Assembly (NCBI RefSeq): GCF_027497175.1
Contig: NZ_CP114901.1
Location: forward strand, 3,224,001-3,288,000
Length of the DNA stretch: 64,000 nt
Direction: 5' to 3'
DNA from: Verrucosispora sp. WMMD573
Lineage (GTDB): Bacteria > Actinomycetota > Actinomycetes > Mycobacteriales > Micromonosporaceae
Shown: piece by piece, positions 27,727-45,335 of the stretch
Layout: each line of letters starts with the position of its first letter
How positions within the stretch are numbered: the stretch's first letter is position 1
Made by a program: the position numbers and the translations under genes
The notes under the pieces: generated by a model
The model's input: only the letters and a program-made list of their open reading frames with translations
Told to the model about the DNA's origin: nothing
Database searches by the model: none

Positions 27727-28287
27727 ATGACGCGTTACCTTGTCGTGCCCGGTCGAGGAATTCCACTCCCTGGCCACTGGTCGCGCACTTGGGTCAGGGA
27801 GATCCCGGAGTTTCAATGGGCGCCTGAACCGCCAGGGCCGCCGTACGTGGCTGCCGAACGGGTCGCCGCGCTGCACGCTGCCGTAAGCGCCGATGGCGAG
27901 CCGGTGATCCTCGTGGCGCACAGCGCCGGATGCCTGACCGTCGCTGTCTGGGCCAGCCAACACACCGGTCCCGTCGATGCCGCCCTGCTGGTTACTCCAC
28001 CGTATCTGGATCCGGACTGGACTCCTGGTCCTGACGAGATCGCCGATGTCTTCATCGATCATGTGCCACGCGAGCCACTGCCCTTTCGTTCGATCTTGGT
28101 TGCCAGTCGCAACGACCCACATGCCACGTTCGAGCAGTTCGAGGCGTACGCGCGGGATTGGGGCTCGGAGCTTTTCGACGCGGGCGTGGTCGGGCACCTG
28201 GACTCGAAGACTGGGTTCGGTGGGTGGCCCGACGGCGAGCGCCTGGTCCGATCATTGACCAAGCCTGTACGGCCACAACAACGCTGA
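27727..28287 (+). CDS. RBBP9/YdeN-family alpha/beta hydrolase
   Basis: 186 residues from ATG 27727. MTRYLVVPGRGIPLPGHW opens the fold, and the nucleophile Ser is in VAHSAGC (G/A-H-S-x-G). The acid is in VASRNDPHATFEQ and the catalytic His in GVVGHLDSKTGFGGW. This short hydrolase family has mostly unknown substrates. It stands alone in the right flank of the element. Confidence 0.85.
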   Translation: MTRYLVVPGRGIPLPGHWSRTWVREIPEFQWAPEPPGPPYVAAERVAALHAAVSADGEPVILVAHSAGCLTVAVWASQHTGPVDAALLVTPPYLDPDWTPGPDEIADVFIDHVPREPLPFRSILVASRNDPHATFEQFEAYARDWGSELFDAGVVGHLDSKTGFGGWPDGERLVRSLTKPVRPQQR

Positions 28288-28634
28288 CGCTACCGGGAGC
28301 GTGACGCATAGTCCGAACGCTACTACCGACCGTACGACGTGCGCTCATCGCAGTTCGGGACGCGAACCGATGCGACATTCCCGAGGTGCAGGTCCGGGGA
28401 TTGGTCGCGCGTTCAAAGCCGGCGCATCGACCGTCTGCTACTACTCGGTCGGCTTCGATCTCGCTGCCGTCCGCGCGAGGACGCGTTCTCAGGCGAACTC
28501 CCGTGCGGTGGATTCCTCTCGCTGCGATGAACGAGCAACTCGGCGACTAATCGATGAAGCGCTTGCGTCGAGCACCGCGGTGGCGTTCTCGCTGCTGGCG
28601 AGTTCGTGTCGGTGGGTTGGGGCAGGATGTGGCC
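28288..28634. other. Intergenic gap, nothing recognised
   Basis: 347 bases between the hydrolase and the double VOC protein. Open frames crossing it have no ribosome site or family features. A weak ACGCT/AGCGT hairpin follows the hydrolase stop. Confidence 0.4.
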
Positions 28635-29348
28635 ATGACCGTGACAGCCCGCCTGGACCTGGCCATCTTCGACGCCGCGGACATCGACAGGGTCGGCTCG
28701 TTCTACGCCGAGTTGGCCGGCTGGGACATCGTCCGTCAGGGTCCTGACCGGTTCGGCGTTCGGACTCCGGACGGTCAGGAGGTCGAATTTCAGCGCGCTC
28801 CTGACCATGTCGGGCCGCGGTGGCCCGGGCAGGAGCACCCGCAGCAGTTCCACCTGGACCTGCAGACCGACGATCCCCAGTCGCAGGCCGAGCGGGCCGT
28901 CGCCCTCGGTGCGGTCCGGCTGGCCGACGGCCCTACCTGGATCACCCTGGCCGACCCGGCCGGTCATCCCTTCGATCTCTGCCAGGCAGACGGCGTCGGG
29001 CCGGTGATGAGGCTGTTCGCGGTGACGATCGACGCCCCTGACGCGTCAGCGCTGGCCCGCTTCTACGCAAGCCTCACCGGTATGGAGGTCACCTACGACG
29101 GCCCCGAGGGTGCGCTCGTCGCTGGTGGCGGTAGGAGCCTGATGTTCCAGCAGATCAGCGCCTACAACGCGCCCCGCTGGCCGGATCCGGCGTACCCGCA
29201 GCAGGCCCATCTCGACCTTCTCGTCGACGATCTGGACGCAGGCGAGACCCGGGCACTGGAACTGGGCGCCCGCCGGCTCAGCGCCGGCAGTGAGCGCTTC
29301 AGAGTCTTCACGGACCCGGCCGGCCACCCGTTCTGCCTGATCCGGTAG
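28635..29348 (+). CDS. Double-domain VOC (glyoxalase/bleomycin-resistance-like) protein
   Basis: 237 residues from ATG 28635; an in-frame ATG at 28554 lacks support. Two VOC modules of about 115 residues: the first opens LDLAIFDAADIDRVGSFYAELAGW and closes LADPAGHPFDLC; the second opens FAVTIDAPDASALARFYASLTGM and closes FTDPAGHPFCLIR. Typical metal-ligand positions are not clearly conserved (the closing strands lack the Glu), so it may bind ligands rather than catalyse. Such proteins can sequester antibiotics. It lies 314 bases upstream of the lanthipeptide precursor, but no link is shown. Confidence 0.8.
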   Translation: MTVTARLDLAIFDAADIDRVGSFYAELAGWDIVRQGPDRFGVRTPDGQEVEFQRAPDHVGPRWPGQEHPQQFHLDLQTDDPQSQAERAVALGAVRLADGPTWITLADPAGHPFDLCQADGVGPVMRLFAVTIDAPDASALARFYASLTGMEVTYDGPEGALVAGGGRSLMFQQISAYNAPRWPDPAYPQQAHLDLLVDDLDAGETRALELGARRLSAGSERFRVFTDPAGHPFCLIR

Positions 29349-29662
29349 CGCACCGGGACCAGCGCCGTCTGGACGGACTTGACGAATTCGTACGGTCACG
29401 GCGCACATCCGTCGGGACCTGCGAGCAACTCGCGGCGCACCAGGCTGCCGCACCTCCCGACGACACGCACGACCCACGGTGAGCGCCAGCCGACCGGCAG
29501 ATGCGGGCTCGGAGCAGCGCGCCCGGGATGGCGTCGGGACGAGGCGGCCGAGCCGATAGAGAACGCGTAGCCGACGCATAAGCGACTCGATGACACTGGC
29601 CGTCGACAGGGCGTGGCGCGGAAACCCTGCGTGACGGATCGCCCTGACCAGAAAGGACTGGT
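29349..29662. other. Upstream region of the lanthipeptide operon
   Basis: 314 bases with no supported gene. It should contain the operon's promoter and any SARP-binding repeats. I could not fix -10/-35 elements by eye. Confidence 0.4.
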
Positions 29663-29881
29663 ATGGCCGACAACAAGATTGCGGATCACACCGCGGGCGG
29701 ACAGGCCGAGCACTTCCTCGACCTGGACGACCTCGACCTCGCCGGGGTCGACATCGATACCTGGGACAAGACCGCGGGCGGCACCAGCTGGCCCTGCGTC
29801 GTACGCACCATCACGGTGGTCACCCGGGCTGCCTGCGGTTCCGCCGACTGTGGCCCGCCCCCGCCCGGTGGCAGCTACTGA
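29663..29881 (+). CDS. Class I lanthipeptide precursor (LanA)
   Basis: 72 residues with AAAGGA upstream of ATG 29663. The leader (1-40) is acidic and carries FLDLDDLDLAG, which resembles the F-N-L-D recognition box of class I leaders. It ends in Gly-Gly (DKTAGG), a C39-peptidase cleavage site. The 32-residue core starts TSWPC and holds three Cys (45, 58, 63) and seven Ser/Thr (41, 42, 49, 51, 54, 60, 71), ending in a Pro4-Gly-Gly-Ser-Tyr tail. Plausible rings are Ser42-Cys45, Thr54-Cys58 and Ser60-Cys63. It does not look like nisin, microbisporicin or planosporicin cores. The modification genes follow directly. Confidence 0.9.
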   Translation: MADNKIADHTAGGQAEHFLDLDDLDLAGVDIDTWDKTAGGTSWPCVVRTITVVTRAACGSADCGPPPPGGSY

Positions 29882-29905
29882 GTTCCTGAGGTTGGTTAAC
29901 GACCG

Positions 29906-30868
29906 GTGAAACAGCTCAGCTCTCCACTGCTGTGGCTGCGGGACGGTCCGGAGGAGGTCCAGAGCCTAGTTGCGGGCCTGGACCTCGTTCGGACCACCGC
30001 CCACGAGGACGCCAGCCACGCGTGGCTCTGCATGATTGCCAATGGCACCGCACACTACCTGTCCACCTACGCGCCGACGGAGCTGCTGTCGAGGCTCTAC
30101 ACCGGCGGAAACGAACTGTACGGCGTGGTCGCCCCGGTCGGCCGGCTGCGCACCGGTGCCGATGGCGAGCTGGTGGTCGACGGGTGCTGGCGGTTCGGCT
30201 CCGGGTCTGATCGGGCCGCCGTCATGGCGATGGGGTGCGAGCCGATGGCGGGCCGTCGTGTCACCGTCCTCGTCGACCGTGCGCGGCTCGACGTGACGCA
30301 CCCGTGGGAGGGGCCGGGGTTACTCGCGACCGCCAGCCACACCCTGCGGGCCAGCGGTGTTCGCGTCTCACCCGCAGATGTGGTCGACATGACCGACGTG
30401 CCGGCCGGTCGACCGGTCGGCATCTACGCCGATCCGGATCTGTTCCTGGCCAACATGCCCGGGGTGGCGCTCGGGCTCGCCGAACGGCTACTGGCGCTGC
30501 TCGAACCGGGTTCGGTGCCCGGTTCCTGGCGGGCCACCTACGCCGACGCCGTCGCCCGTAACACGCTCGCCCGACGCGGCCTGGTCGGGATGCTGCACAG
30601 CTTCGACGCGCTGGCCCGGGCAGGGCAGCTGACGCCGTTCTCACCGGCGTTGCGGCAGGAGTTCCTGCTGATGTTGAGCGCTGCGTACCACCTCGGCCTG
30701 GATGCCGCCCTCGCGTTGGCCGAAAGCTGCGACACGACGGACGCGGAGATCCGGCAACAGCTCGACCAGGCGCGGGTCGACATCGCGACCATGCGACCGC
30801 ACGCCGCGATGCGATCGTCCCGGCTGGTCGGCCAGGTGTCGGCCATCCCGGTGGGGAGGCTCCGATGA
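29906..30868 (+). CDS. Acyl-CoA-dehydrogenase-fold flavoprotein of the lanthipeptide operon
   Basis: 320 residues from GTG 29906, 24 bases after the precursor gene. It resembles the acyl-CoA dehydrogenase/group D flavin monooxygenase fold: an N-terminal helical part (DASHAWLCMIANGTAHYL), a middle beta domain (APVGRLRTGADGELVVDGCWRFGSGSDRAAVMAMGC), and a C-terminal helical bundle ending TMRPHAAMRSSRLVGQ. It is shorter than the usual 380-400 residues. The catalytic base is not identifiable. A role in oxidising or hydroxylating the peptide is inferred from position. Its stop overlaps the lanB ATG. Confidence 0.7.
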   Translation: MKQLSSPLLWLRDGPEEVQSLVAGLDLVRTTAHEDASHAWLCMIANGTAHYLSTYAPTELLSRLYTGGNELYGVVAPVGRLRTGADGELVVDGCWRFGSGSDRAAVMAMGCEPMAGRRVTVLVDRARLDVTHPWEGPGLLATASHTLRASGVRVSPADVVDMTDVPAGRPVGIYADPDLFLANMPGVALGLAERLLALLEPGSVPGSWRATYADAVARNTLARRGLVGMLHSFDALARAGQLTPFSPALRQEFLLMLSAAYHLGLDAALALAESCDTTDAEIRQQLDQARVDIATMRPHAAMRSSRLVGQVSAIPVGRLR

Positions 30869-33594
30869 ACGCTGCCCCAATGCTGTCGACACCGGGCTGG
30901 TGCCTGCTGCGGATTCCGCTGCTGCCGGCGGTGCCCGACGCCGCTGCCCCAGAAGGCTTGGCGCGGCAACTGCTGGACCTGGCCGTCGACTACGCGACCG
31001 TGTTCCAGCGGGCCGGGGAGGAGGACCGGGACTGGCAGGACCCGGCGACCCGGTTGGCCGTCTACGGCAGTCGGGCCCGGTACCGCCCGACCCCGTTCGG
31101 CATGTTCAGCCTCAGCCTGCTCGCCGAAGTCGAGGAACGGAACGTGGCGTCGGCCACCCGGCTCGATCTGGTGACCGATGTCCGGTTGCGCCGCCTCGAT
31201 CTGCCGCAGCAGACCGGTCGGTGGTTCGTCAATCCGTCCCTCGCCGTCGAGCACGGCCGGTGGTCGTACCTGCACCCGGACAAGGGTGGCGTCACGTCGA
31301 TGTCGGACAATCCGGGCGTGCGCCAGCTCGCGGAGCGTCTCGCCGCGCAGCTCGCCGCCGTACCCCGATCGGCGGCGGCATGGGCCGTCGTGCTCGATGG
31401 CGAGACCCAGTTCGACCTGGGCGTACGGCACCGGCTGCTGCTGCCGGAGCATGAGCCAGAGATGATCGTCGGCCCGGCCGCACCGGCTGTGCCCACTGAG
31501 CCGGTCAAGGCGGCGCTGGCTGTCGAGCGGCCGTTCCGGGACGACCAGTTCGTGGACGCCTTCAGCGAGGTCCGGGCCCGGCTGTCCGGCGGGCGCACCG
31601 CGACGCTGCTCGACGGGGCCGCCCAGCTTCTGCGGGGCCACTGGCGGCCCGGGCGGCTCGACCGGGTGCGGGACCACGTCGCCGGCAGCTACAGCGGCGG
31701 AGCGATCCCGCTGGCGTGGCTGCTGACCGCCCCGGTGGACCATCCGCTGGGCAGCTGGCGGCGGCCGGAGACCGAGGTCGAGGGCGCCGAGACCCGGGTA
31801 CCGGCGCGACGCCTGTTCGTGCCACAGGCCCGTCGCGACAACGGCGCGGTGCGATGGTGGGCGGAAGCCCTCACGCTGGACCAGTGGCGGTCCCGCCGCT
31901 CGCTGCCCACCCCCGACAGCGCCGTGGTGACCCAGCCACAGTTCGGGATGGCCAACGGCGCGCTGCTGGCCGAGCCGGTGGCCGGCGCGGACGCCTGGCT
32001 CAAGATGGTCCTGCCAGGCTTCTGGGGCGGCCCCGGCGCCCGGCTCAGTGAGCAGCTGGGGATCAGCACGCCCGACCTGGGTACGGCGGTCCCCGGCTGG
32101 CTCCCGGTGGAGATCGGGTGGGCGCCGCCGGATCGGCGGGCACCGTTGGTCCGCCGGCCGGAGAGCGGATTGCCCCGGCTCAACCTCAACCTGCCGCACC
32201 GTGCCGACGACGTGCAACTGGCGGACCTGGCCGTGACCATGATGGCGGGGCGGCTCCAGTTGGTTCGCCGATCCGACGGGCGCTACGTGCAGCTGCGGTG
32301 GGACAGCCCATTGACGCTCAGTAACAGCTTCAACCCCTGGTCGGTGCAGCTGCTGGGGTTGCTGCTGGATGAGGCGCACGGTCCGGCGCTCGCCGCCGAC
32401 CCCAGCCTGTGGGCGCCGCCGGGCGAGATGGTCCCCCGCATCACCGCCGGCCGTTGTCTGGTGGCGCGGCGCAGCGTCGTCCTGGACGCACAGCACCGCG
32501 CCGATCTTCTGAACCTGGCGGAGAGTCCGGCGCAGTTGTGCGACGTACTCACCGAGGTGGGGCTCGGGCCGCAGGTGGAGGTGAGCGAGGGGCCGGACAC
32601 GACCATGCGGTTGGACCTCACCGACCCCACCCAGCGGTGGTGGTTCACTCGGCGGCTGCGCCGCGAGGGCCGGCTGATGCTGCATGAGGCCCTGCCGGTG
32701 GCGCCGCTCGTCGAGTCGGAGCTGGGCGGGCACATCCATGACGTCTGGGTGCCGTGGCTGCGTCCTGATCCGCATGCAGTCAGGCCGATGTCGCGCACCC
32801 GGCTGGTGGACCGGCAGCCGACCGAGGACCCGGAGTGGACCAGCTGGTTCGTCTACGCCCCGGAGCGGGTGGTGGAGCTCTGGCTGGCGGGCGCCGAGAG
32901 AATGACGTTGATGCGCCAGGCGCAGCTGTTCTACATCCGCTATCACGACGATCGGCCGCATCTGCGGATACGGGTGCAGCACGGCGTCGAGGCCGAGTCG
33001 TTGCTGGCCGGCCTGCGCGCCCACCTGGCCGCGATGGTGCCGCAGCAGCCCTGCGAGGTCGAACTCCGGACCTGGACACCTGAGGACTACCGGTACGGCG
33101 GTGTGGCGAGCCGGGCCGACGCCGTACGGCTGTTCTGCGCCGACTCGGCCTGGTGGACGCAGCGGCTCGCCGCTGGCCCGGACCGGGCTGGCCGGTACAC
33201 GTTGGCGGTTGCCCGGATCGCCGCCTGGTGCCGGCAGCTGGCCGGCGAGGAGCAGGCGTTGGCGCTGCTCTGCGAGCTACGCGGGCTGGACCCCCGGCTG
33301 CCCAGCTCGCGGGGCCAGCGGGAGTGGATGGCGACCTTCCGGGCCGCTCGACTGGACCTGGAACAGGCCCTGGACGCCGCGCTGACCGAGCCGGAGCCGG
33401 CCCTGGACTATCTGACCGGTCTGGACAGCGACGCCTATGCCACGGCGCTGAGCAGCCTCATCCACATGAGCGTCAATCGTGGGTTGCCGATGGGGCAGGC
33501 GGTGAACCGCGAACCAGAGCTCGTGCTGGCGGCGGCACGGTTGTTGAAGGGTCGGCAGGCGCGGGCCACCCGAGGCAGAGCGGCCGATGGCTGA
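30865..33594 (+). CDS. lanB: Lanthipeptide dehydratase LanB
   Basis: 909 residues, slightly short for full-length LanB (about 1000). The N-terminal glutamylation domain opens PGWCLLRIPLLPAVPD and contains SRARYRPTPFGMFSLSLLAEV, a hallmark block. The C-terminal elimination domain is present from about 640 (WTSWFVYAPERVVELWLAGAERMTLMRQAQLFYIRYHDDRPHLRIRVQ). It should use glutamyl-tRNA to activate Ser/Thr in the precursor core and remove glutamate to give Dha/Dhb. It overlaps its neighbours by four and eight bases, so production is coupled. Confidence 0.93.
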   Translation: MNAAPMLSTPGWCLLRIPLLPAVPDAAAPEGLARQLLDLAVDYATVFQRAGEEDRDWQDPATRLAVYGSRARYRPTPFGMFSLSLLAEVEERNVASATRLDLVTDVRLRRLDLPQQTGRWFVNPSLAVEHGRWSYLHPDKGGVTSMSDNPGVRQLAERLAAQLAAVPRSAAAWAVVLDGETQFDLGVRHRLLLPEHEPEMIVGPAAPAVPTEPVKAALAVERPFRDDQFVDAFSEVRARLSGGRTATLLDGAAQLLRGHWRPGRLDRVRDHVAGSYSGGAIPLAWLLTAPVDHPLGSWRRPETEVEGAETRVPARRLFVPQARRDNGAVRWWAEALTLDQWRSRRSLPTPDSAVVTQPQFGMANGALLAEPVAGADAWLKMVLPGFWGGPGARLSEQLGISTPDLGTAVPGWLPVEIGWAPPDRRAPLVRRPESGLPRLNLNLPHRADDVQLADLAVTMMAGRLQLVRRSDGRYVQLRWDSPLTLSNSFNPWSVQLLGLLLDEAHGPALAADPSLWAPPGEMVPRITAGRCLVARRSVVLDAQHRADLLNLAESPAQLCDVLTEVGLGPQVEVSEGPDTTMRLDLTDPTQRWWFTRRLRREGRLMLHEALPVAPLVESELGGHIHDVWVPWLRPDPHAVRPMSRTRLVDRQPTEDPEWTSWFVYAPERVVELWLAGAERMTLMRQAQLFYIRYHDDRPHLRIRVQHGVEAESLLAGLRAHLAAMVPQQPCEVELRTWTPEDYRYGGVASRADAVRLFCADSAWWTQRLAAGPDRAGRYTLAVARIAAWCRQLAGEEQALALLCELRGLDPRLPSSRGQREWMATFRAARLDLEQALDAALTEPEPALDYLTGLDSDAYATALSSLIHMSVNRGLPMGQAVNREPELVLAAARLLKGRQARATRGRAADG

Positions 33595-34666
33595 GGCCGA
33601 CGCCGCGCGGCGACTGCTGCGTCGACTCGTCGTCGAGCTACGGCGGCGGGGGCACGTGAGCTCGGAAGCGGCGACAGCCCTCGCCCTGCTCGCGTCCCGG
33701 CTGGGTCAGCGGGGTCTGGCGGCGTCCCTGACCGAGCTGGCCGTGCGGGGCGGGCAGGTGCCCGACTTCCGGATCAGCTGGCTGCGCCACCGGCTGGTGG
33801 GTGAGTGCCTCCCGGTTGGCCCCGGCCACGCCGAGACCCTGGCCCGGACCAGGGCGCAGGCGGTGGAGATGCTCGATGCCTTCTATCGGCACCATGTCGA
33901 GGCCGCCGACGCAGATCTGGTCAACGGCGCCGGCGGGGTCGTGATGAGCCTGTGGGACCTCGCCGACGAACCGACTCGCGCCAGGCTGGCCCAACCCATC
34001 ACCGGGATCGCGCTGTCCATCATGGAGCAGGATTCGCCCGGTCTATACCACGGTCGCAGCGGTGGCATCCTGCTGTTGCGGATGCTGGGTCGCCGCTACG
34101 GCGAGGACCGGTTGGTAACCGCGGCGGTCGACGCGTTGCTACGGCATCTGGAACAGCTGAGCCCTGCCAGCCTCGACCGCGGCTGGTTGGGTGTCGGCGG
34201 TGTCACCATGTGTTACGGCCAGCCGGGAATGCTTACCGCGCTGGGGCCGGAGGTCGACCCGCTGGTGCTGGCGCGGTTCGTCGACGCGGCGATCACCGGC
34301 CCGGCCCTCGCCCGTCTGGACGGGCTGCTGGCCGACGCCGGGGCCGACATCTCGGTCTGCCACGGCCTGGCCGGGCTGAGCCTGGTCACCAGGTTCGCCC
34401 CCGGGTGGCGGGAACTGGTCGGTCCGGACCGCCGGGCCCGGCTGGCGGCCCGACTCGCGCACCACCTGGACCAGGCCGACGACCAGGCGGTGGCCGCCAT
34501 CTTCGACACGCCTTTCCTGCTGTCGGTGATCGAAGGGACGCTCGGGGCGGCGCTGGCGCTGGCGGAGTGCGAGACGACGTCACGGCCCTGGTGGGGCGTC
34601 TGCGTGAGTCTCGGTGACGGGTCGGCCGCGGTGGCCGGCAGCCAAGCAGTAGGGAGCAGTCGATGA
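33587..34666 (+). CDS. lanC: Lanthionine cyclase LanC
   Basis: 359 residues. An alpha-barrel with the zinc ligands of LanC in order: Cys209 in VTMCYGQPG, and Cys258-His259 in ISVCHGLAGL. GGVVMSLWDL and YHGRSGGILLLRML also fit the family. The N-terminal 60 residues are Arg/Leu-rich. It adds Cys thiols to dehydro residues to form the (methyl)lanthionine rings. The C-terminal 25 residues look flexible. Its start lies inside the lanB end, and its stop overlaps the transporter ATG. Confidence 0.92.
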   Translation: MAEADAARRLLRRLVVELRRRGHVSSEAATALALLASRLGQRGLAASLTELAVRGGQVPDFRISWLRHRLVGECLPVGPGHAETLARTRAQAVEMLDAFYRHHVEAADADLVNGAGGVVMSLWDLADEPTRARLAQPITGIALSIMEQDSPGLYHGRSGGILLLRMLGRRYGEDRLVTAAVDALLRHLEQLSPASLDRGWLGVGGVTMCYGQPGMLTALGPEVDPLVLARFVDAAITGPALARLDGLLADAGADISVCHGLAGLSLVTRFAPGWRELVGPDRRARLAARLAHHLDQADDQAVAAIFDTPFLLSVIEGTLGAALALAECETTSRPWWGVCVSLGDGSAAVAGSQAVGSSR

Positions 34667-36750
34667 CAGCCAACCTTCAGACCGAGGACAACGACTGCGG
34701 CGTGTCGGCACTCGTCGCCAGCCTGCGCCTACAGGGACACCAGTTTTCCGAGCCGCTGCTGCGGGATGCGTTGGCCACCCGGGGCGCCCTGTCGCTTCAG
34801 GACCTGCGGGACACCTGCGCGGCAGTGGTGGGCGTGCGCTACCGCGGCCGGCGGGACTTTCCGTTCGCCGAACTGACTCCGGGCACCATCGTCCACCTGC
34901 GTATGGATCACTTTGTGACGGTGGAGCGATGGCGCGGGCGGCGGGTACGGATCTTCGACCCATCGGTCGGGTACGGATGGCTGACCGAGGCCGCCTACCA
35001 GGAGCAGGCCAGCGGCTGGGTGCTGGCACCGGCCACTCCGGCACCGGCGGCGAACGCAACCCGACGTCCACGCGCGGCCACCCGGGCCGACTGGCTGTGG
35101 CCGATGCTGCGGTCCGGGCAGATCAAGTTCCGGCAGGTGGTGCCGGTCCTCGCGATGAGCCTGCTGCTCTACACCGGCCTGACCCTGCTCAACATGGTCC
35201 TGTTGCCCTACCTGAACGAGGTCACCGTCGCGGGTACGGTCGCCGCCGGCACCCTGGTCACCGTGTTGGTGGCGTTCAGCGTCGCAGCCAGCGCGCTGTT
35301 CTGGCTCCGGCATCGGCAACTCACCTCGCTGGGGCTGTCGTTCGACCGGGCGATGCTGCGTGAACTGATCGACCGCCTGACCCGTACGTCGGCGCGCACC
35401 GAGCTGACCTCGGGCGACGTGCTGCATCGGGTGCAGAGCGCCCGCGCCGTCCGGGAGGCCGGCACCGGCCTGGCGCTGTCGCTGTTCACCGACGCGGTCG
35501 CCGTGGTGATCCTGCTGGCGTTCATGGCGACGATGTCGCTGCCGCTGACCGGCGTGGTGGCCGGCGTGGCCGCGCTACACATCGTCCTGACGGTCCTCGG
35601 CCGGATCCCGATCAACAGGCGTTTCGAGGAGCAGCTGCAACTCGACGGTGAACTCCAGGATCTGCTGATCAGCGTCTCTCGCGGTCTGACCACCTACCGG
35701 GGGCTGGGAGCGGTCCGGCACCTGGAGGCCGAGCACGCCCAGCGGCTGGACCGGTTGCAGCAGTCGATCCGCGGGCTGGAGTACCGCTTGGCCTGGGTGT
35801 ACGGGCCGAGCAACGCCCTGCGGTTCGCCGGGCTGTACGTGATTCTCGTGGTGGGTTCGGTGCTGCTGTCCGCAGGTCTGGTCAGCACCGGAGAGCTGTT
35901 CGGGTTCCTCACCCTCGGCGGTACGGTGCTGTTCTCGGTCACCGCCATCGCGCAGAGCCTCACCAACGCCGCCACGCTGGAACGGCAACTCCGCTACGTG
36001 ACGAGTGTGTTCACGTTGCCCGTGATGGAACGGGGAACCCGCACCGAGCCGGTGCCGGCCGCGTCGGCAGTGGTGCTGGACGGGGTTCGGGTGCACCGCC
36101 CGAGGGAGCACTTCGACCTTCGGTTGGACCTGCGGGTGGAGCGGGGTGAAACGGTTACCGTCAGCGGTACGAGTGGGGTCGGCAAGTCGACCATGGCCCA
36201 GATCATCAGCGGCCTGGACCCGGTACCGACCGGCCAGGTGACCGTCTACGGCGTACCGATCGGCGACTGGGACCCGGATTGCCTTCGGCCGCTGGTGTGT
36301 TACGTACCGCCCCGGTCCGACTTCCTGCACACGACGATCCGGGAGAGCCTGTCCAGCGGCTCCACCGACGTCACCGACCAGGAGATCAACGACGTGCTCG
36401 CCGCGATGGAGCTGACCGAGGTGATGCGGCCCCTGCGGCTGGGGTTGCGTACCCGCCTGCGCATCAACGGTTCGACCTTCAGCGCGGGAGAGGTGCAGCG
36501 GTTCGCATTGGCCCGGGCGCTGCTGCGCCGGCCGTCGCTGCTGATCCTCGACGAGGCCACCAACTCCCTGGATCGGGATCTTGAGCTGCGGCTGCTCTCG
36601 GAGATGCAGCGCCGGGTCGAGACGCTTGTCGTGATCAGTCATCGCCCGATCGGTGACCACCTGGGCAGCCGTCACGTGCGGATCGTGCGCGACGACAGCG
36701 GCGTGTCCCGGCTCGAATCGGCGGCGGTCGCGGCGGTCGTCGGTGGCTGA
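34663..36750 (+). CDS. lanT: Peptidase C39-containing ABC transporter (LanT-type)
   Basis: 695 residues. The C39 peptidase spans 1-130, with Gln6, Cys12 (QTEDNDCG), His83 (MDHFVTVE) and Asp99 (FDPSVG). A six-span exporter domain covers about 160-430. The nucleotide-binding domain has Walker A GTSGVGKST near 503, signature FSAGEVQRF near 606, Walker B LLILDEATN near 626 and H-loop ISHRP. It cuts the leader after Gly-Gly and exports the product. Such fused transporters are typical of class II lanthipeptides; finding one with LanB/LanC is less usual. Overlaps of four and eight bases join its neighbours. Confidence 0.92.
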   Translation: MTANLQTEDNDCGVSALVASLRLQGHQFSEPLLRDALATRGALSLQDLRDTCAAVVGVRYRGRRDFPFAELTPGTIVHLRMDHFVTVERWRGRRVRIFDPSVGYGWLTEAAYQEQASGWVLAPATPAPAANATRRPRAATRADWLWPMLRSGQIKFRQVVPVLAMSLLLYTGLTLLNMVLLPYLNEVTVAGTVAAGTLVTVLVAFSVAASALFWLRHRQLTSLGLSFDRAMLRELIDRLTRTSARTELTSGDVLHRVQSARAVREAGTGLALSLFTDAVAVVILLAFMATMSLPLTGVVAGVAALHIVLTVLGRIPINRRFEEQLQLDGELQDLLISVSRGLTTYRGLGAVRHLEAEHAQRLDRLQQSIRGLEYRLAWVYGPSNALRFAGLYVILVVGSVLLSAGLVSTGELFGFLTLGGTVLFSVTAIAQSLTNAATLERQLRYVTSVFTLPVMERGTRTEPVPAASAVVLDGVRVHRPREHFDLRLDLRVERGETVTVSGTSGVGKSTMAQIISGLDPVPTGQVTVYGVPIGDWDPDCLRPLVCYVPPRSDFLHTTIRESLSSGSTDVTDQEINDVLAAMELTEVMRPLRLGLRTRLRINGSTFSAGEVQRFALARALLRRPSLLILDEATNSLDRDLELRLLSEMQRRVETLVVISHRPIGDHLGSRHVRIVRDDSGVSRLESAAVAAVVGG

Positions 36751-37582
36751 GGGAGTAAGCGGCGTCCACGCCTACTGGCAGCTGCCCAGCCGGCTACCCC
36801 GGGCCTACCAGCAGCTGTCCCGGGCGACCTGGCTGCTGAGCATCCGCTCGTGGCAACGGCACGCCGGGCCGATCACGCTCTACGCCGACCCGCCGACCAT
36901 GGAGTGGCTCGACCAACTCGGCTGGCTCAACTGCTACGACCAGACCGAGACGATCGACGACCGGGATCTCGACAAGCACTACGACCGGGTGGCCTGTTTC
37001 GCGCTGCCGAAGCTGCTCGCCCTGGAGCGGTATCCCGACGCGGTGCTGGTGGACACCGACGCCTACCTGTACCACCGGCTGCGGCTGCCGGCCACCGGCT
37101 CGGTCTTCGCACACCTGGAGCACGGCGCCGCCGACTTCTACTCCCGGCTGCGCGAACTGCGCAACCCCGCACAGGTGGAGCTGCCCGACTCGCTGCCGAC
37201 GGTCGGCAACACGTCGTTGTTCCGGGCGGCCGATGCGGGCCTGGCCCGCCGGATCAGCCACGCCGGCCTCAGCTTCCTGGCCGGAAACCCGAGCACACCC
37301 GGCCGCGACGTCCACCTGCACATGACCGTCGCCGAGCAGGTGCTCGCCACCCACCTGACCACCGTCGCCGGGCAGCAGGTGGTCAATCTCTTCAATGCGT
37401 TGTGGTGCCCACGGACGCTGCGCTGGCTGACCGAGCCACCCCGCTTCGGCCACCTGTGGAACCTCAAACGCGGGGGGACCGCCGAGCAACTGCTGGCCGC
37501 GTACGTGGCGGTCACCCGAAAGCTGTGGAACGAGTACGGCGTCGACCCGGACCGGGTACGCGCAGTCTTGGAGCGGACATGA
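36743..37582 (+). CDS. DxD-motif glycosyltransferase-like protein
   Basis: 279 residues from GTG 36743, eight bases inside the transporter end. It opens VHAYWQLPSRLP and has LLSIRSWQRHAGPITLYADP, then a DxD-like motif in VLVDTDAYLYHRL (GT-A metal and nucleotide-sugar binding). Later parts (TVGNTSLFRAADAGLARRI, HMTVAEQVLATHLTT) resemble small sugar-transferase-like proteins of the DUF6734 type. A transferase decorating the lanthipeptide is inferred from the operon. No signal peptide or membrane span is seen. Confidence 0.65.
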   Translation: MAEGVSGVHAYWQLPSRLPRAYQQLSRATWLLSIRSWQRHAGPITLYADPPTMEWLDQLGWLNCYDQTETIDDRDLDKHYDRVACFALPKLLALERYPDAVLVDTDAYLYHRLRLPATGSVFAHLEHGAADFYSRLRELRNPAQVELPDSLPTVGNTSLFRAADAGLARRISHAGLSFLAGNPSTPGRDVHLHMTVAEQVLATHLTTVAGQQVVNLFNALWCPRTLRWLTEPPRFGHLWNLKRGGTAEQLLAAYVAVTRKLWNEYGVDPDRVRAVLERT

Positions 37583-38841
37583 TCTCGACCGACCTGCTCG
37601 ACCGGCTGGCGAACACCGGCGCCGGGCTGACCCAGCCAGCCGGATCGACCGTATCGGGTGGGCATTCTCCGGACTGGGTGGTGGAGCCGGAGTCGTTGGC
37701 TCAGCTGACCACCCTGGTCCGGGTACTGCACGCAGCCGGCGCGGACTGGCGGGTGGACGCCCACGGTCGCAACTGGGGATACGACGATGCCCGGGTACGC
37801 GAGCCGGGGCTGATCGTCCGGATGGCCCGGCTGGATCGGTTGGATCTCGATGTCGACCTCGGCCTCGCCACGGTGCAGCCCGGGGTGACCTTCGCGCAGC
37901 TGAACGAGGCGTTGCGGCGGGCCGACGCCCGCTTCCAGCTGCCTGCGCCGGGCTCCGGCCCGCACACCTCGGTGCTCGGTAACGCGCTGGAACGTGGCCT
38001 GCTCGCCGGTCTCGGCGAGCGCGAACGCCACTGTAGGGACTTTCTCGTCCTGCGCCGCGACGGCGAACTCGATCGCCTGGGCTGGCCGGATGCCACCGAC
38101 GACCGGGTCCGGCGGGCGCTGCCGTATCCACCCGGTCCGCACCGGCAAGGGTCGCTGTTCCAAACCTCCGGGTACGGCCCGGTGGTGGTGGAGCTGACGC
38201 ACGTGCTGCCGCTGGCAACCGACCTGACGGCCACGCCGGTGTTGCTGGCCGGTGCCGAGCTGACCGAGGAACTGGTGCGGTGCTGGCGGGACGTGCTCAT
38301 GGAGGAGCTGGTGACCTCCAGCATCCTTCTCTCGCCGGCCCGCCGCCGGGCTCAGGGCATCAGGGTCAGCCACGACGGGCTCGTCCTTGAACTGTGCGTC
38401 GGCGCCCGCTCGTCCGTGATGCTGCGGGCCAAGGTCGTCGACGTGCAGCGGTTGGCCCGTCAGCACGGGCAGCGGCTGGCCGTACGAGTCGTCGGCGGCC
38501 ACGACGACCTGAGCATCCTCGGCGGCGACCAGAGCCAACCGGAGCTGGTGGGCAAACTCCCGAAAGGGCTGGAATGGCACACCGCGGCGTTACCGTTCGC
38601 CCCATCGGTGGTGGCAGCCTTCGCGCGGGCGGTACGGGCGGACCCGGTGCTGGCGGACATCCCGTGGACGCTGCGTCCGCTCGATTCCCGGGCGTTGGTC
38701 TGGTTGGCGCCGCTCGTGTACCGCAAGCAGGACTCGGACAGCGTCGCACTACTGCGGCGTCGGGTGGCCGCCGTTGCCCGGCTCCGCGATGAGTTCGCCG
38801 TTCCGGCCTACCGGTCCGGCGCGGTACGGAGCCACCGATGA
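37579..38841 (+). CDS. PCMH-type FAD-binding oxidase/dehydrogenase
   Basis: 420 residues from ATG 37579 (ATGA overlap with the gene before). The FAD domain follows the vanillyl-alcohol oxidase/4-cresol dehydrogenase type: DWVVEPESLAQLTTLVRVL, WRVDAHGRNWGYDD, VTFAQLNEALRRADARFQLP and APGSGPHTSVLGNALERG. The C-terminal half is less conserved and likely binds substrate. The Tyr/Trp of WGYDDA may flank FAD. It should oxidise the peptide, an attached sugar or an aromatic residue; which one is unknown. It is the second flavoprotein of the operon. Confidence 0.75.
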   Translation: MISTDLLDRLANTGAGLTQPAGSTVSGGHSPDWVVEPESLAQLTTLVRVLHAAGADWRVDAHGRNWGYDDARVREPGLIVRMARLDRLDLDVDLGLATVQPGVTFAQLNEALRRADARFQLPAPGSGPHTSVLGNALERGLLAGLGERERHCRDFLVLRRDGELDRLGWPDATDDRVRRALPYPPGPHRQGSLFQTSGYGPVVVELTHVLPLATDLTATPVLLAGAELTEELVRCWRDVLMEELVTSSILLSPARRRAQGIRVSHDGLVLELCVGARSSVMLRAKVVDVQRLARQHGQRLAVRVVGGHDDLSILGGDQSQPELVGKLPKGLEWHTAALPFAPSVVAAFARAVRADPVLADIPWTLRPLDSRALVWLAPLVYRKQDSDSVALLRRRVAAVARLRDEFAVPAYRSGAVRSHR

Positions 38842-39875
38842 GTCACGTTCTCATCGTCAGCGTCCACCGGATCCACACCGGCCGGTCCGGCGAGGCGGTC
38901 CACCTGCGCCAGCTCATTGAGGCGCTGCGCGCCGCCGGCGAACGCGTGACAGTCCTCGACGGTCCGATGGACCCGGGGACGGCCGGGGCCGATCACGGGG
39001 CCGGACTGCGGTCGATCGCCGAGCAGCTGGTCACCCTGTTGACGCGGGATCGGCCCGATGCCGCCCTGCTCTGGGGGCACCTCGGTGAGGAGACCGAGCT
39101 GGCGCGGCGGCTGGCAGCGGCGGACATACCGACCGTGCTGGAACATCCGGCCGCTGACCTTGAGCCGGTGCCGGAGACACTCCGGCTGGTTGACGAGGTG
39201 GTGGTGCCGTCCGAGTTCGCCCGGCGGCTGTTCCAGTCGCAGACCGGCCGTCAGGCCCGCGCGATCGAACCGTGCCTGCGTGGCTGTGCCTGCCCGCCGG
39301 CGACGTCCCGCGTACCGGTGTCCAAGGGGCCGTACCAGCTGACCTTCATCAACCCGGAGCCGGCCAAGGGGCTCGGGATCGTGATGCACCTCGTGATGGC
39401 CGCCAGCGGGGCGGGGCTGCCGTTCCGGTTCCGGTTCGTCGAGGGGCGGTGGACCAGGGAGCATCTCGCCCGGCTCGGCATCGGCCCCACCGACCTGCCC
39501 GGGGTGGAGATCGTCGAATACCGCGACGACACCTGTGCGCTCTACGCCGAGACCGACCTGTTGCTCGCACCGAGCCTGTGGCAGGAGAGCTTCGGGATGG
39601 TCGCCCGCGAAGCCGTGATCCACGGCGTGCCGGTGGTGGCAACCCGGGTCGGCGGTCTGCCACAGGCGGTCGGTGCCGGGGGACAGTGCCTGCCACCGCC
39701 GGCGTGGGAGGACGACTACCAGGTCCGGATGACCACGGCCGAGGTCAGGGCCTGGCTGGCGGCCGTGGTCACCGGGCTGCGCGGCGCTCACCGCCGTCAA
39801 CCGGCGCTGCTGTCCCGCGCCACGTCGGACAGCGTCCGGGCGTACCGGGCGGTGCTCGGTTCGTCGCCGGGGTGA
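38838..39875 (+). CDS. GT4-family glycosyltransferase
   Basis: 345 residues from ATG 38838 (ATGA overlap). A GT-B fold: the N-terminal half has VSVHRIHTGRSGEAVHLRQLIEAL and VPSEFARRLF. The C-terminal half has FINPEPAKGLGIVMHLV and the donor-site ALYAETDLLLAPSLWQESFGMVAREAVIHGVPVVATRVGGLPQAVG with the E-x7-E pattern. Together with the DxD-type transferase it predicts a glycosylated product. Its last 79 bases overlap, tail to tail, the SARP gene on the minus strand. Confidence 0.85.
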   Translation: MSHVLIVSVHRIHTGRSGEAVHLRQLIEALRAAGERVTVLDGPMDPGTAGADHGAGLRSIAEQLVTLLTRDRPDAALLWGHLGEETELARRLAAADIPTVLEHPAADLEPVPETLRLVDEVVVPSEFARRLFQSQTGRQARAIEPCLRGCACPPATSRVPVSKGPYQLTFINPEPAKGLGIVMHLVMAASGAGLPFRFRFVEGRWTREHLARLGIGPTDLPGVEIVEYRDDTCALYAETDLLLAPSLWQESFGMVAREAVIHGVPVVATRVGGLPQAVGAGGQCLPPPAWEDDYQVRMTTAEVRAWLAAVVTGLRGAHRRQPALLSRATSDSVRAYRAVLGSSPG

Positions 39876-41992
39876 ACGCGTCCGGTGGCACGGCTCACGG
39901 CGTCGGCGATCGCCGCTGCCGGCCTGCTCCAGCGTCGCTCGCCAGCCACCGCCCCCATCGTGGCCAGGTTCTCCGACTCGTCGCGTAGCCAGTCCTGCGG
40001 CCTGACAAGCAGCCGGTCCAACTCGGCCGGTGAGAAAAGGAGCCGAGAGGCCGTGCCCGGCGGCGGGGGCCAATCGGGCGCCGGCCGTCCGGGGCACGGC
40101 GCCAGCCGACGCACGGCCTCCTGGGCCAGCACACTCCAACCGTCGGCCGCACGGGCCAGCACCTGGGTGACGGGCACGTCCGCGTGGGGCGATCCGTCCG
40201 CCGCTGTGGTGAGCGCGTAGGTCCGGACCAGGTTGGGCAGCAGGTAGCGGTGCGGGCCGACGGTCTGCCGCGGCACCGGCGTCAGCAGGTGGCTGCCGAC
40301 CAGCTCGTCCAGCGCCTGCATCGCCTCGCGGGGTGCCAGCCCCGCACAGATCGTGGGCGCCCAGTCCGGGACGGTGGCTGTCGGAAGTACGGCGAGCCGA
40401 CGCAGCGCCAGGCTTGCCGCCGCGGTCAGCGCCCGGAATGACGGCGCCAGGTTGTCGCGCATCGACCCGTCCTCGGTACTCAGCGCGTCGAGCCGGTGCT
40501 GCGGGTCCCGCAACAGGGCCACCAGGTCGGCGGCCCACCGGCCCCGGTACATCCGGCAGGAAGCGAACCACAGGGCCAACGGCAGGCCGTCGCAGAGCAC
40601 GGACAGCGCGCGGAGCGCGGCCGGCTCCGCCAACAGACGATCGGGGCCGAGATGAGCGGCGAGGACCTCCAGCCCTTGCGCCTGCGACAGCGGCGCCACC
40701 GCATGCCGGTGCGCCCCGGGAAGGTCGAGCTGCCAGCGGGCGGTGACCAGCACCGCGCAGCCAGCCCCCGCCGGCAGCAGCGGCAGCACCTGGTCGACCG
40801 CGCGGGCGTCGTCGAGCAGCAGCAGGCAGCGCCGCTCCGCGAAGAGGCTACGCAGCAGCGCCACCCGGGCCGTCCGCTCGGTTGGAATTGCCAGATCGGG
40901 GACGCCGAGCACACGTAGCAGTTCGTCGAGCATTTGGTCCGGGTGCTGCGGCTGCCCGCTGCCAGCGAGGTCGACGTACAGCTGGCCATCGGGGTAGGCG
41001 GCGGCGACGGTGTGGGCGACCTGGAGGGCCAGGGCAGACTTGCCGACCCCGGGCATGCCGTGCAGCAGAACGACCTGAGGGCCGACGTTGGCCGGCCGGT
41101 CCGGGGTGCCGCCCAAGCGCCTGACCAGGTCCGTCAGGTCGTCCTGGCGGGCTACGAAGAGCGACGACGCGGGCGGCAGTTGGGCTGGCCGGGGCCGGTC
41201 GGCGAAGCGCAGGGTCGGCACCGAACCGACCGTGACGTCGAGGCTCGGATCCTGCCGGAGAACAGCGTGTTCCAGATCGCGCAGGAGTGGGCCAGGGTCG
41301 AGGCCATGCTCGTCCCGCAGCAGCTGGCGACCGTGTCGAGCTACGCTGAGCGCCTCCGGCTGCCGGTCGCTTCGGTAGAGCGCCACCACCAGTTGGGCGC
41401 GCAGCAGCTCGCGCAACGGATGCTCGGCGACATACTGGGTCAACTCCGGGATCAGGTCGCGGTGGCAACCGAGCTCGAGCTCGATATCGAGCAGCCATTC
41501 CAGGTCGGCCAGCCGGGTCTCCTCCAGACCCGCACGGGTCGGGTCGACGAACGAGGCGAGGGCACCGGTCAGCGCCGGGCCGGTCCAGAGTGCCAGCGCG
41601 TCGCGCATGAGGGTACGGGCGTTGGGCAGCCGACCGTGGTTGCGCTGCGCCCGCGCCAACTCGGTGAGCCTGCTGTAGGCCGTCAGGTCGAGTTCGTGCG
41701 AGGCGAGGTCCAGCAGATAGCCGCCGGGCCTGGTGAGCAGCGGCGCCGGTGCGCCGTCGGTACGCCGCAACGTCCAGCGCAGCGCCGAGATCTCGGACTG
41801 AATCTGCGCCCGTGCCGTGGCTGGCGGCGTGCTTTCCCAGATCGCCGTGGTCAGCTGGTCGACCGACACCACGCGGTTGGCGTTCAGGAGGAGGTAAGCG
41901 AGCACCGCACGGCGGCGGGGCCGCGCCACGTCGACCGGCTCACTATCCACAGCTGCGCCGACCGGACCAAGCACCGTGAAGCGCAGCGTCAT
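39797..41992 (-). CDS. SARP-type regulator with NB-ARC ATPase domain
   Basis: 731 residues from ATG 41992. An OmpR-like winged helix (1-95; RRRAVLAYLLLNANRVVSVDQLTTAIW) and a bacterial transcriptional activation domain (about 100-245; LARAQRNHGRLPNARTLMRDAL) are followed by an NB-ARC domain with Walker A HGMPGVGKSALALQ near 316 and Walker B CLLLLDDARAVD. The C-terminal part lacks clear TPRs. AfsR/SARP proteins activate secondary-metabolite operons by binding repeats near -35. It is convergent with the lanthipeptide operon and a candidate regulator of it or of the NRPS locus. Confidence 0.88.
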   Translation of the reverse strand: MTLRFTVLGPVGAAVDSEPVDVARPRRRAVLAYLLLNANRVVSVDQLTTAIWESTPPATARAQIQSEISALRWTLRRTDGAPAPLLTRPGGYLLDLASHELDLTAYSRLTELARAQRNHGRLPNARTLMRDALALWTGPALTGALASFVDPTRAGLEETRLADLEWLLDIELELGCHRDLIPELTQYVAEHPLRELLRAQLVVALYRSDRQPEALSVARHGRQLLRDEHGLDPGPLLRDLEHAVLRQDPSLDVTVGSVPTLRFADRPRPAQLPPASSLFVARQDDLTDLVRRLGGTPDRPANVGPQVVLLHGMPGVGKSALALQVAHTVAAAYPDGQLYVDLAGSGQPQHPDQMLDELLRVLGVPDLAIPTERTARVALLRSLFAERRCLLLLDDARAVDQVLPLLPAGAGCAVLVTARWQLDLPGAHRHAVAPLSQAQGLEVLAAHLGPDRLLAEPAALRALSVLCDGLPLALWFASCRMYRGRWAADLVALLRDPQHRLDALSTEDGSMRDNLAPSFRALTAAASLALRRLAVLPTATVPDWAPTICAGLAPREAMQALDELVGSHLLTPVPRQTVGPHRYLLPNLVRTYALTTAADGSPHADVPVTQVLARAADGWSVLAQEAVRRLAPCPGRPAPDWPPPPGTASRLLFSPAELDRLLVRPQDWLRDESENLATMGAVAGERRWSRPAAAIADAVSRATGRVHPGDEPSTARYARTLSDVARDSSAG

Positions 41993-45104: not shown

Positions 45105-45335
45105 AAGCACCTCAAACGTGGGCGCTGTCACCGGGTGCACCGTACCCCGATGACGGGGGCGAGTTGGTGGTCCATACGTCAGTTGTGCCGCGATTGTATG
45201 GGCCCCACCGTATCGTTCCGCGGTCCACACCTCCGCGCCGGAGACCGCCCGCCGTGACCGAGCGGGAGTACGGTCACCGGCCTCGGACACGGCGCGGCGA
45301 TGTGACGTGGGGCGGGTCGTCGTCACCCGCCGCCG

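Follow-up and report, generated by a model that had tools for sequence, protein, structure and literature searches.

A probably SARP-regulated operon of Micromonosporaceae for a probable class-I-type lanthipeptide with predicted C39 processing, oxidation and sugar tailoring

The stretch of DNA analyzed here (64,000 nucleotides from Verrucosispora sp. WMMD573, termed the window; source genome 6.5 Mb, single contig) carries an operon of eight genes, all in frame, at positions 29663-39875 of the forward strand. Judged by its genes, the locus is probably under SARP control and makes a class-I-type lanthipeptide, which would be processed by a C39 exporter and tailored by oxidation and sugar attachment. 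The gene content and gene order are conserved, catalytic motifs are kept and the precursor contains a Gly-Gly site. The features of the operon are:

29663-29881, forward strand: precursor peptide, 72 amino acids (aa), found at the same place in 6/6 relatives
29663-29782, forward strand: precursor leader ending in Gly-Gly (DLDDLD and Gly-Gly in 7/7 loci)
29783-29878, forward strand: precursor core, 32 aa, 3 Cys, 7 Ser/Thr
29876-29878, forward strand: codon of the C-terminal Tyr72 (terminal Tyr in 13/13 precursor rows)
29906-30868, forward strand: gene 2, short acyl-CoA-dehydrogenase-fold relative of group D flavin monooxygenases by profile matches, 320 aa
30865-33594, forward strand: LanB dehydratase, full length, 909 aa (PF04738, PF14028, TIGR03891)
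33587-34666, forward strand: LanC-like cyclase, divergent, 359 aa (PF05147)
34663-36750, forward strand: C39 peptidase-ABC exporter, 695 aa (PF03412, PF00664, PF00005)
36743-37582, forward strand: gene 6, glycosyltransferase-like with GT-A fold and DTD motif, 279 aa, no Pfam family
37579-38841, forward strand: gene 7, vanillyl-alcohol-oxidase-type (VAO-type, 4-phenol-oxidising) FAD protein, 420 aa (PF01565)
38838-39875, forward strand: gene 8, GT4-type glycosyltransferase, 345 aa (PF13692, PF00534)

The first-pass annotation had placed eight genes on one strand across this interval, with overlaps of 4-8 bases after a 24-base step behind the precursor, and this layout was recovered here, the junctions measuring, in order, +24, -4, -8, -4, -8, -4 and -4 bases. 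The start of gene 6 was taken as the GTG at 36743, which is backed by orthologues (a longer frame opens at 36653), and that of gene 7 as the ATG at 37579. For comparison, the eight proteins were used in tblastn searches of six relatives (G037, G107, G287, G319, G342 and G346), five of which are Polymorphospora rubra, M. zingiberis, M. okii, Micromonospora C95 and WMMD1082. All six encode eight homologues in identical order on a single strand. Across the seven loci, i.e., these six plus the window, the overlaps at the five junctions from LanB through the last glycosyltransferase are identical. The junction of gene 2 with LanB is -4 in 5/7 loci and -1 and +14 in the remaining two, and the gap between precursor and gene 2 is 24-25 bases in 6/7 loci and 288 in G287, where the choice of start is unsure. 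Genes 2-8 are 47-95% identical to their counterparts in the six relatives, and the precursor 37.5-87.5%.

Gene 2 (E 1e-40) and gene 7 (E 1e-20) each occur in 7 of 354 family genomes, and the seven genomes are identical. Within these 354 genomes no relative of gene 7 at 1e-20 lies outside the operon, and no plasmid copy of gene 7 was found. An earlier protein search with LanC recovered 4 of 300 family genomes, including its own. At class level, gene 2 has a strong match in its own genome only, out of 394, and weak ones in 16 others; at genus level, its matches in 44 of 160 genomes are all at E 9e-18 or weaker. Such weak matches were read as more distant acyl-CoA-dehydrogenase-fold proteins and discarded. 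Named relatives of the window proteins are mostly Micromonospora, plus Polymorphospora and Plantactinospora, and the searches with precursor, gene 2 and gene 6 also returned names from Plantactinospora, Dactylosporangium, Catellatospora and Actinomadura. On sequence evidence the operon is a rare, coherent unit of Micromonosporaceae and neighbours, because gene order is kept in all six relatives and genes 2 and 7 are confined to the same seven genomes. Pfam matches were obtained for LanB, LanC, the C39 exporter, gene 7 and gene 8, and none for the precursor, gene 2 and gene 6. Together with profile and fold matches they agree, to differing degrees, with the identities proposed at first pass: a precursor, LanB, a C39 transporter, two flavoproteins and two types of glycosyltransferase.

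The precursor shows the motif F(L/V/I)DLDDLD(L/F)A and a terminal Gly-Gly in the leader of 7/7 loci; the window leader holds FLDLDDLDL, which is near the FxLD box but inexact. In precursors of ribosomally synthesized and post-translationally modified peptides (RiPPs) the leader is kept and the core changes over longer distances, with a Gly-Gly between the two. By its sequence the precursor displays this leader/core pattern typical of RiPPs: the M. okii core, INWTSIIPTTGCTSTTNRCPGPTGPY, is 25% identical to the window core and its leader 47%, and the G287 core, FRPTDLCTITGRCATAGCNGQQY, is 16% identical and its leader 37%. A chance or untranslated frame was rejected because frame, place and leader are kept in 6/6 relatives. 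Codon changes against the four close relatives are commonest at the third position (6, 7 and 14 at positions 1, 2 and 3 for Polymorphospora). The changed codons divide into non-synonymous and synonymous ones as 10/10, 15/12, 9/6 and 11/10, so that purifying selection on the precursor is not strongly shown. The M. okii precursor (L063 6140-6337) has nine core Ser/Thr and two Cys, and its ring pattern must therefore differ from the others; the M. okii enzymes 2-8 are 56-74% identical.

The C-terminal residue is Tyr in 13/13 precursor rows, which represent 11 distinct sequences and 10 distinct cores, and this terminal Tyr is the sole aromatic residue common to all cores. Trp, present in 3 of the 10 distinct cores, was set aside for this reason as the site of oxidation or sugar attachment. 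The protein search with the precursor yielded six relatives, none of them characterized, five named 'hypothetical protein' and one nameless; one of the five is called 'FxLD family lantipeptide' in UniRef. NCBIfam lanthipeptide precursor models gave no match for the seven close precursors, a scan that M. okii and G287 lay outside. A methanobactin match below cut-off (13.4 vs 24 bits) was taken as chance.

The LanB protein combines the glutamylation and elimination parts of the dehydratase in one chain and scores above cut-off against both PF14028 (82.5 bits) and PF04738 (46.8 bits). Over the elimination region its profile matches NisB (2.2e-5); the TPFG stretch aligned below significance. R70, R74, T76, R701 and R703 are invariant in 7/7 loci; NisB R784/R786 align with R701/R703 and NisB R83/R87 with R70/R74, which we take to be the elimination and glutamylation residues, respectively. 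A single LanB or a single LanC sequence gave no PDB match at 0.001. In LanC, H155, C209, C258 and H259 are invariant in 7/7 loci and presumably correspond to the LanC zinc motifs. The exporter scores 31.7 bits against PF03412 (cut-off 22) and matches the ComA chain over residues 6-662. Its Cys12, His83 and Asp99, presumably the C39 catalytic triad, are invariant in 7/7 loci. On the straightforward reading of this match and these kept residues, the C39 exporter would cleave the leader at Gly-Gly.

Gene 7 scores 63.1 bits against PF01565 (FAD_binding_4), and 23 of its 33 PDB matches carry a specific name, all of them VAO, eugenol, allylsyringol or cresol enzymes; names are generic for the remaining 10. 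The flavoproteins VAO, eugenol oxidase and p-cresol methylhydroxylase provide the best match of its FAD domain (residues 30-254). They differ from gene 7 in length (501-560 vs 420 aa), in that the C-terminal part of gene 7 is unmatched, and in that the substrate of gene 7 would be a peptide. Y68 and Y411-R412 are invariant in 7/7 loci. Y68 aligns with Tyr91 of eugenol oxidase, which we take to be the phenolate-binding Tyr. A further difference is that Gly125 aligns with eugenol oxidase Asp151, a residue with a role in that enzyme.

Gene 2 has no Pfam match in any of 19 rows. Among the best 7,996 candidates scored it has 18 close homologues, the next following at 1.3e-4. Profile searches matched Rv3094c (9e-16), HsaA (8.4e-10), HPAH-C2 (7.6e-6) and XiaF (2.4e-5), of which the last three are aromatic hydroxylases. 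The protein also touches three NCBIfam models far under their curated cut-offs (best 26.6 vs 450 bits). Gene 2 thus resembles group D flavin monooxygenases (HsaA, HPAH-C2, Rv3094c) by a profile match over positions 28-207 and differs from them in being shortened and in an operon that holds no reductase partner; we do not assign it to that group.

For gene 6, a predicted GT-A fold and a DxD motif were found, as defined for GT-A glycosyltransferases (GT8-like). Five models were predicted with mean pLDDT from 87.5 down to 57.4, and only the best was used. Its 14 homologues are 58-91% identical and look like orthologues, with genomic context taken from the fetched loci. G287 has a second gene-6-like protein (L060 1532-2542), about 30% identical to gene 6 and just past the SARP gene; it scores 28.4 bits against DUF6734 (cut-off 27), which ties gene 6 to DUF6734. 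Gene 8 scores 51.3 bits against PF13692, and its E250 and E258 (E-x7-E) are invariant in 7/7 loci.

Lanthionine formation, oxidation and sugar attachment to the peptide are chemical steps predicted from these genes. LanB would recognize the precursor leader and dehydrate core Ser/Thr, and LanC would form as many as three thioether rings, at Cys45, Cys58 and Cys63. The flavoproteins encoded by gene 2 and gene 7 would oxidize the peptide, the GT-A and GT4 enzymes would add one sugar and then extend it, and the C39 exporter would cut after Gly40 and export a product of 32 residues. The calculated monoisotopic mass of these 32 residues is 3204.515 without modification, 3150.484 with three waters lost and 3132.473 with four. 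The terminal Tyr72 is the likeliest tailoring site, because the flavoproteins resemble phenol- or sulfur-oxidizing enzymes and this Tyr is the only universal aromatic residue of the core. That it is indeed the main site, an oxidation target of gene 7 and perhaps of gene 2, with perhaps a sugar on its ring, we put at slightly under an even chance.

Several findings weigh against the overall reading. For the precursor, three of the four close relatives keep the core at least as well as the leader, the M. okii core has two Cys where all others have three, and one close clade supplies 8 of the 10 distinct cores, which leaves three lineages to carry the Tyr rule. The solved relatives of gene 2 are 56-102 aa longer, and the nearest of them, Rv3094c, oxidizes sulfur, not phenol; Pfam and NCBIfam scans recognized no flavin reductase among the eight genes. 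Residues 255-420 of gene 7, including Y411-R412, had no sequence match in the PDB search, and a fold prediction from four rows failed (pLDDT 44.4) and was not used. Foldseek TM-scores for gene 6 are low (0.33-0.51), and action of the glycosyltransferases on the peptide is a prediction from the genes. LanC scores only 27.6 bits against PF05147 (cut-off 23.2), one of seven LanC rows misses the family at 0.001 (6/7 match), and the profile search with LanC found no bacterial LanC in the PDB: ten rows up to E 10 were led by unrelated proteins at 0.006, with LANCL1 at 0.83. Scanning the own genome with PF05147 found 0/1, though the translated LanC passes the cut-off, a miss we take as a limit of sensitivity. 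The LanC assignment of the first-pass annotation thus holds weakly, and membership in class I, which has this weak LanC similarity as its basis, is likely.

The low LanC score and the absence of a bacterial LanC from the profile search would also suit a product that is not strictly a lanthipeptide, in which LanB dehydrates, the divergent LanC closes no rings and the outcome is a linear or otherwise crosslinked dehydrated peptide. A precedent for LanB with a Gly-Gly precursor and no LanC is described for M. tusciae in a passage of PMC3951391. Set against this are the invariant H155, C209 and C258-H259 with their fit to the zinc motifs and the two to three Cys that each core keeps, and we regard a ringless product as improbable.

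The main alternative to the reading in which Tyr is modified is that gene 2 sulfoxidizes the thioethers. The same lanthipeptide would then carry lanthionine sulfoxide, as is found in actagardine, with gene 2 acting as a thioether S-oxidase, the sugars placed on Ser/Thr or Trp, and Tyr serving as an export or recognition feature only. Every core has Cys, and the nearest solved relative of gene 2, Rv3094c, is reported to sulfoxidize ethionamide (PMC9904262). Flavoproteins that oxidize lanthionine sulfur are named in a passage of PMC7268733. However, this explanation accounts for neither the second, phenol-oxidase-type flavoprotein nor the C-terminal Tyr, the limited occurrence of Trp speaks against that residue as sugar acceptor, and gene 2 matches HsaA, HPAH-C2 and XiaF as well. 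We consider it rather unlikely, though a serious competitor.

A different role is conceivable for the glycosyltransferases and gene 7, namely self-protection by acting on the cell surface or on some small molecule, with precursor, LanB, LanC and exporter alone building the product. Since no immunity or sugar-supply gene was recognized among the eight by the Pfam and NCBIfam scans, some of the eight genes could serve self-protection. The unbroken 4- and 8-base overlaps that run from LanB through both glycosyltransferases and gene 7 in 7/7 loci argue against it. So do the 14 orthologue-like matches of gene 6, though their genomic context was read in the fetched loci only and G287 has the 30%-identical second copy near the operon. 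We give this division of labor a small chance.

Regulatory features flank the operon on both sides:

39797-41992, reverse strand: SARP-type regulator (BTAD, Trans_reg_C, NB-ARC), convergent, its 3' end overlapping gene 8 by 79 bases
42288-45326, reverse strand: second SARP-type regulator (BTAD, NB-ARC, TPR), possibly a cluster member
29552-29580, forward strand: putative SARP operator GCCGATA-n4-ACGCGTA-n4-ACGCATA, 11-bp heptad period, 111 bases upstream of the precursor start

A homologue of the first regulator stands at the same convergent place in 6/6 relatives (residues 1-259 only in M. okii). For this reason the cluster probably extends one gene past 39875, to the SARP gene: the eight genes of the first-pass annotation stand, and its coordinates, which omitted this regulator, are probably one gene short. 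A close copy of the second regulator lies beside the first in 3/6 relatives, with main pieces 92-98% identical; M. okii and G287 gave distant matches only (30-37%), and the WMMD1082 stretch ends too early to judge. The best period-11 heptad triple was found at -111 to -117 in 5/7 loci. Of 300 shuffles, none reached the score of M. okii or WMMD1082, 15 that of M. zingiberis and 17 that of G287 (at -99), compared with 86 for Polymorphospora, 107 for the window and 86 for C95 (best triple elsewhere). In the window, period 9 outscores period 11 (14 vs 13), and in four more loci period 11 is tied by other periods. A SARP operator before the precursor is thus suggestive, with only M. okii and WMMD1082 standing out. 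Upstream, the serine-hydrolase and glyoxalase-like genes lie at 27727-29348. No copy of these or of the GntR-like gene was found in about 3-6 kb beside the relatives' operons, apart from one weak GntR match in M. okii, and the upstream flank was therefore left out of the cluster.

In comparison with class I lanthipeptides such as nisin, the operon shares a full-length LanB with NisB-like residues, a LanC and an acidic leader whose FLDLD stretch is near the class I FxLD/FNLD box. It differs by the Gly-Gly leader end, the C39 exporter, two glycosyltransferases and a phenol-oxidase-type flavoprotein, and its precursors (seven rows) match no NCBIfam lanthipeptide model. LanBC with a bifunctional C39 exporter and a Gly-Gly precursor is described for salivaricin, Cystobacter and Corallococcus in passages of PMC3951391, and LanBC with C39 and Gly-Gly for many Bacteroidetes in passages of PMC7268733. 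LanB, LanC, C39 exporter and Gly-Gly precursor are common to these clusters and the operon, whereas neither a glycosyltransferase nor a VAO-type flavoprotein is mentioned in those passages; the Cystobacter and Corallococcus clusters carry a 'LanO', and M. tusciae, an actinobacterial case of LanB with Gly-Gly, has neither LanC nor core Cys (PMC3951391). Cacaoidin is likewise a lanthipeptide with a disaccharide on Tyr and has a GT4 enzyme among its three glycosyltransferases (passage of PMC8068269), a likeness by description and not by protein comparison; it belongs to class V, lacks LanB/LanC, and its other two glycosyltransferases are GT2. NAI-112 is also glycosylated but of class III with an N-glycosylated Trp (passages of PMC8068269 and PMC10373908), a residue confined here to the few cores noted above. 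The open-access literature searched yielded no class I lanthipeptide tailored by such a set. Within that literature, C39 combined with LanBC is known elsewhere, and it is the tailoring set that had no counterpart. The operon had been called apparently undescribed at first pass, which agrees with this search, and identity with a characterized cluster was rejected after the precursor and literature searches returned no such match.

A further-reaching proposal, which we hold to be unlikely, is a new lanthipeptide subclass with an obligatory terminal Tyr that undergoes VAO-type benzylic oxidation through a quinone methide, followed by glycosylation by the GT-A and GT4 enzymes. The VAO-type product on Tyr would be either beta-hydroxy-Tyr or dehydro-Tyr; with decarboxylation it would be a p-hydroxystyryl enamide cap akin to aminovinyl-cysteine (AviCys). 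If true, this would be, to our knowledge, the first such use of the VAO-type flavoenzyme family on a RiPP; a literature search on this point gave a single paper, seemingly unrelated. Passages on NAI-112 (class III) and cacaoidin (class V) in PMC8068269 and PMC10373908 name no sugars on class I lanthipeptides. Gene 6 adds a group of glycosyltransferases that lacks its own Pfam family, and the eight-gene set, with two glycosyltransferase types and a phenol-oxidase-like flavoprotein, would offer a compact, testable route to glycosylated, C-terminally oxidized lanthipeptides.

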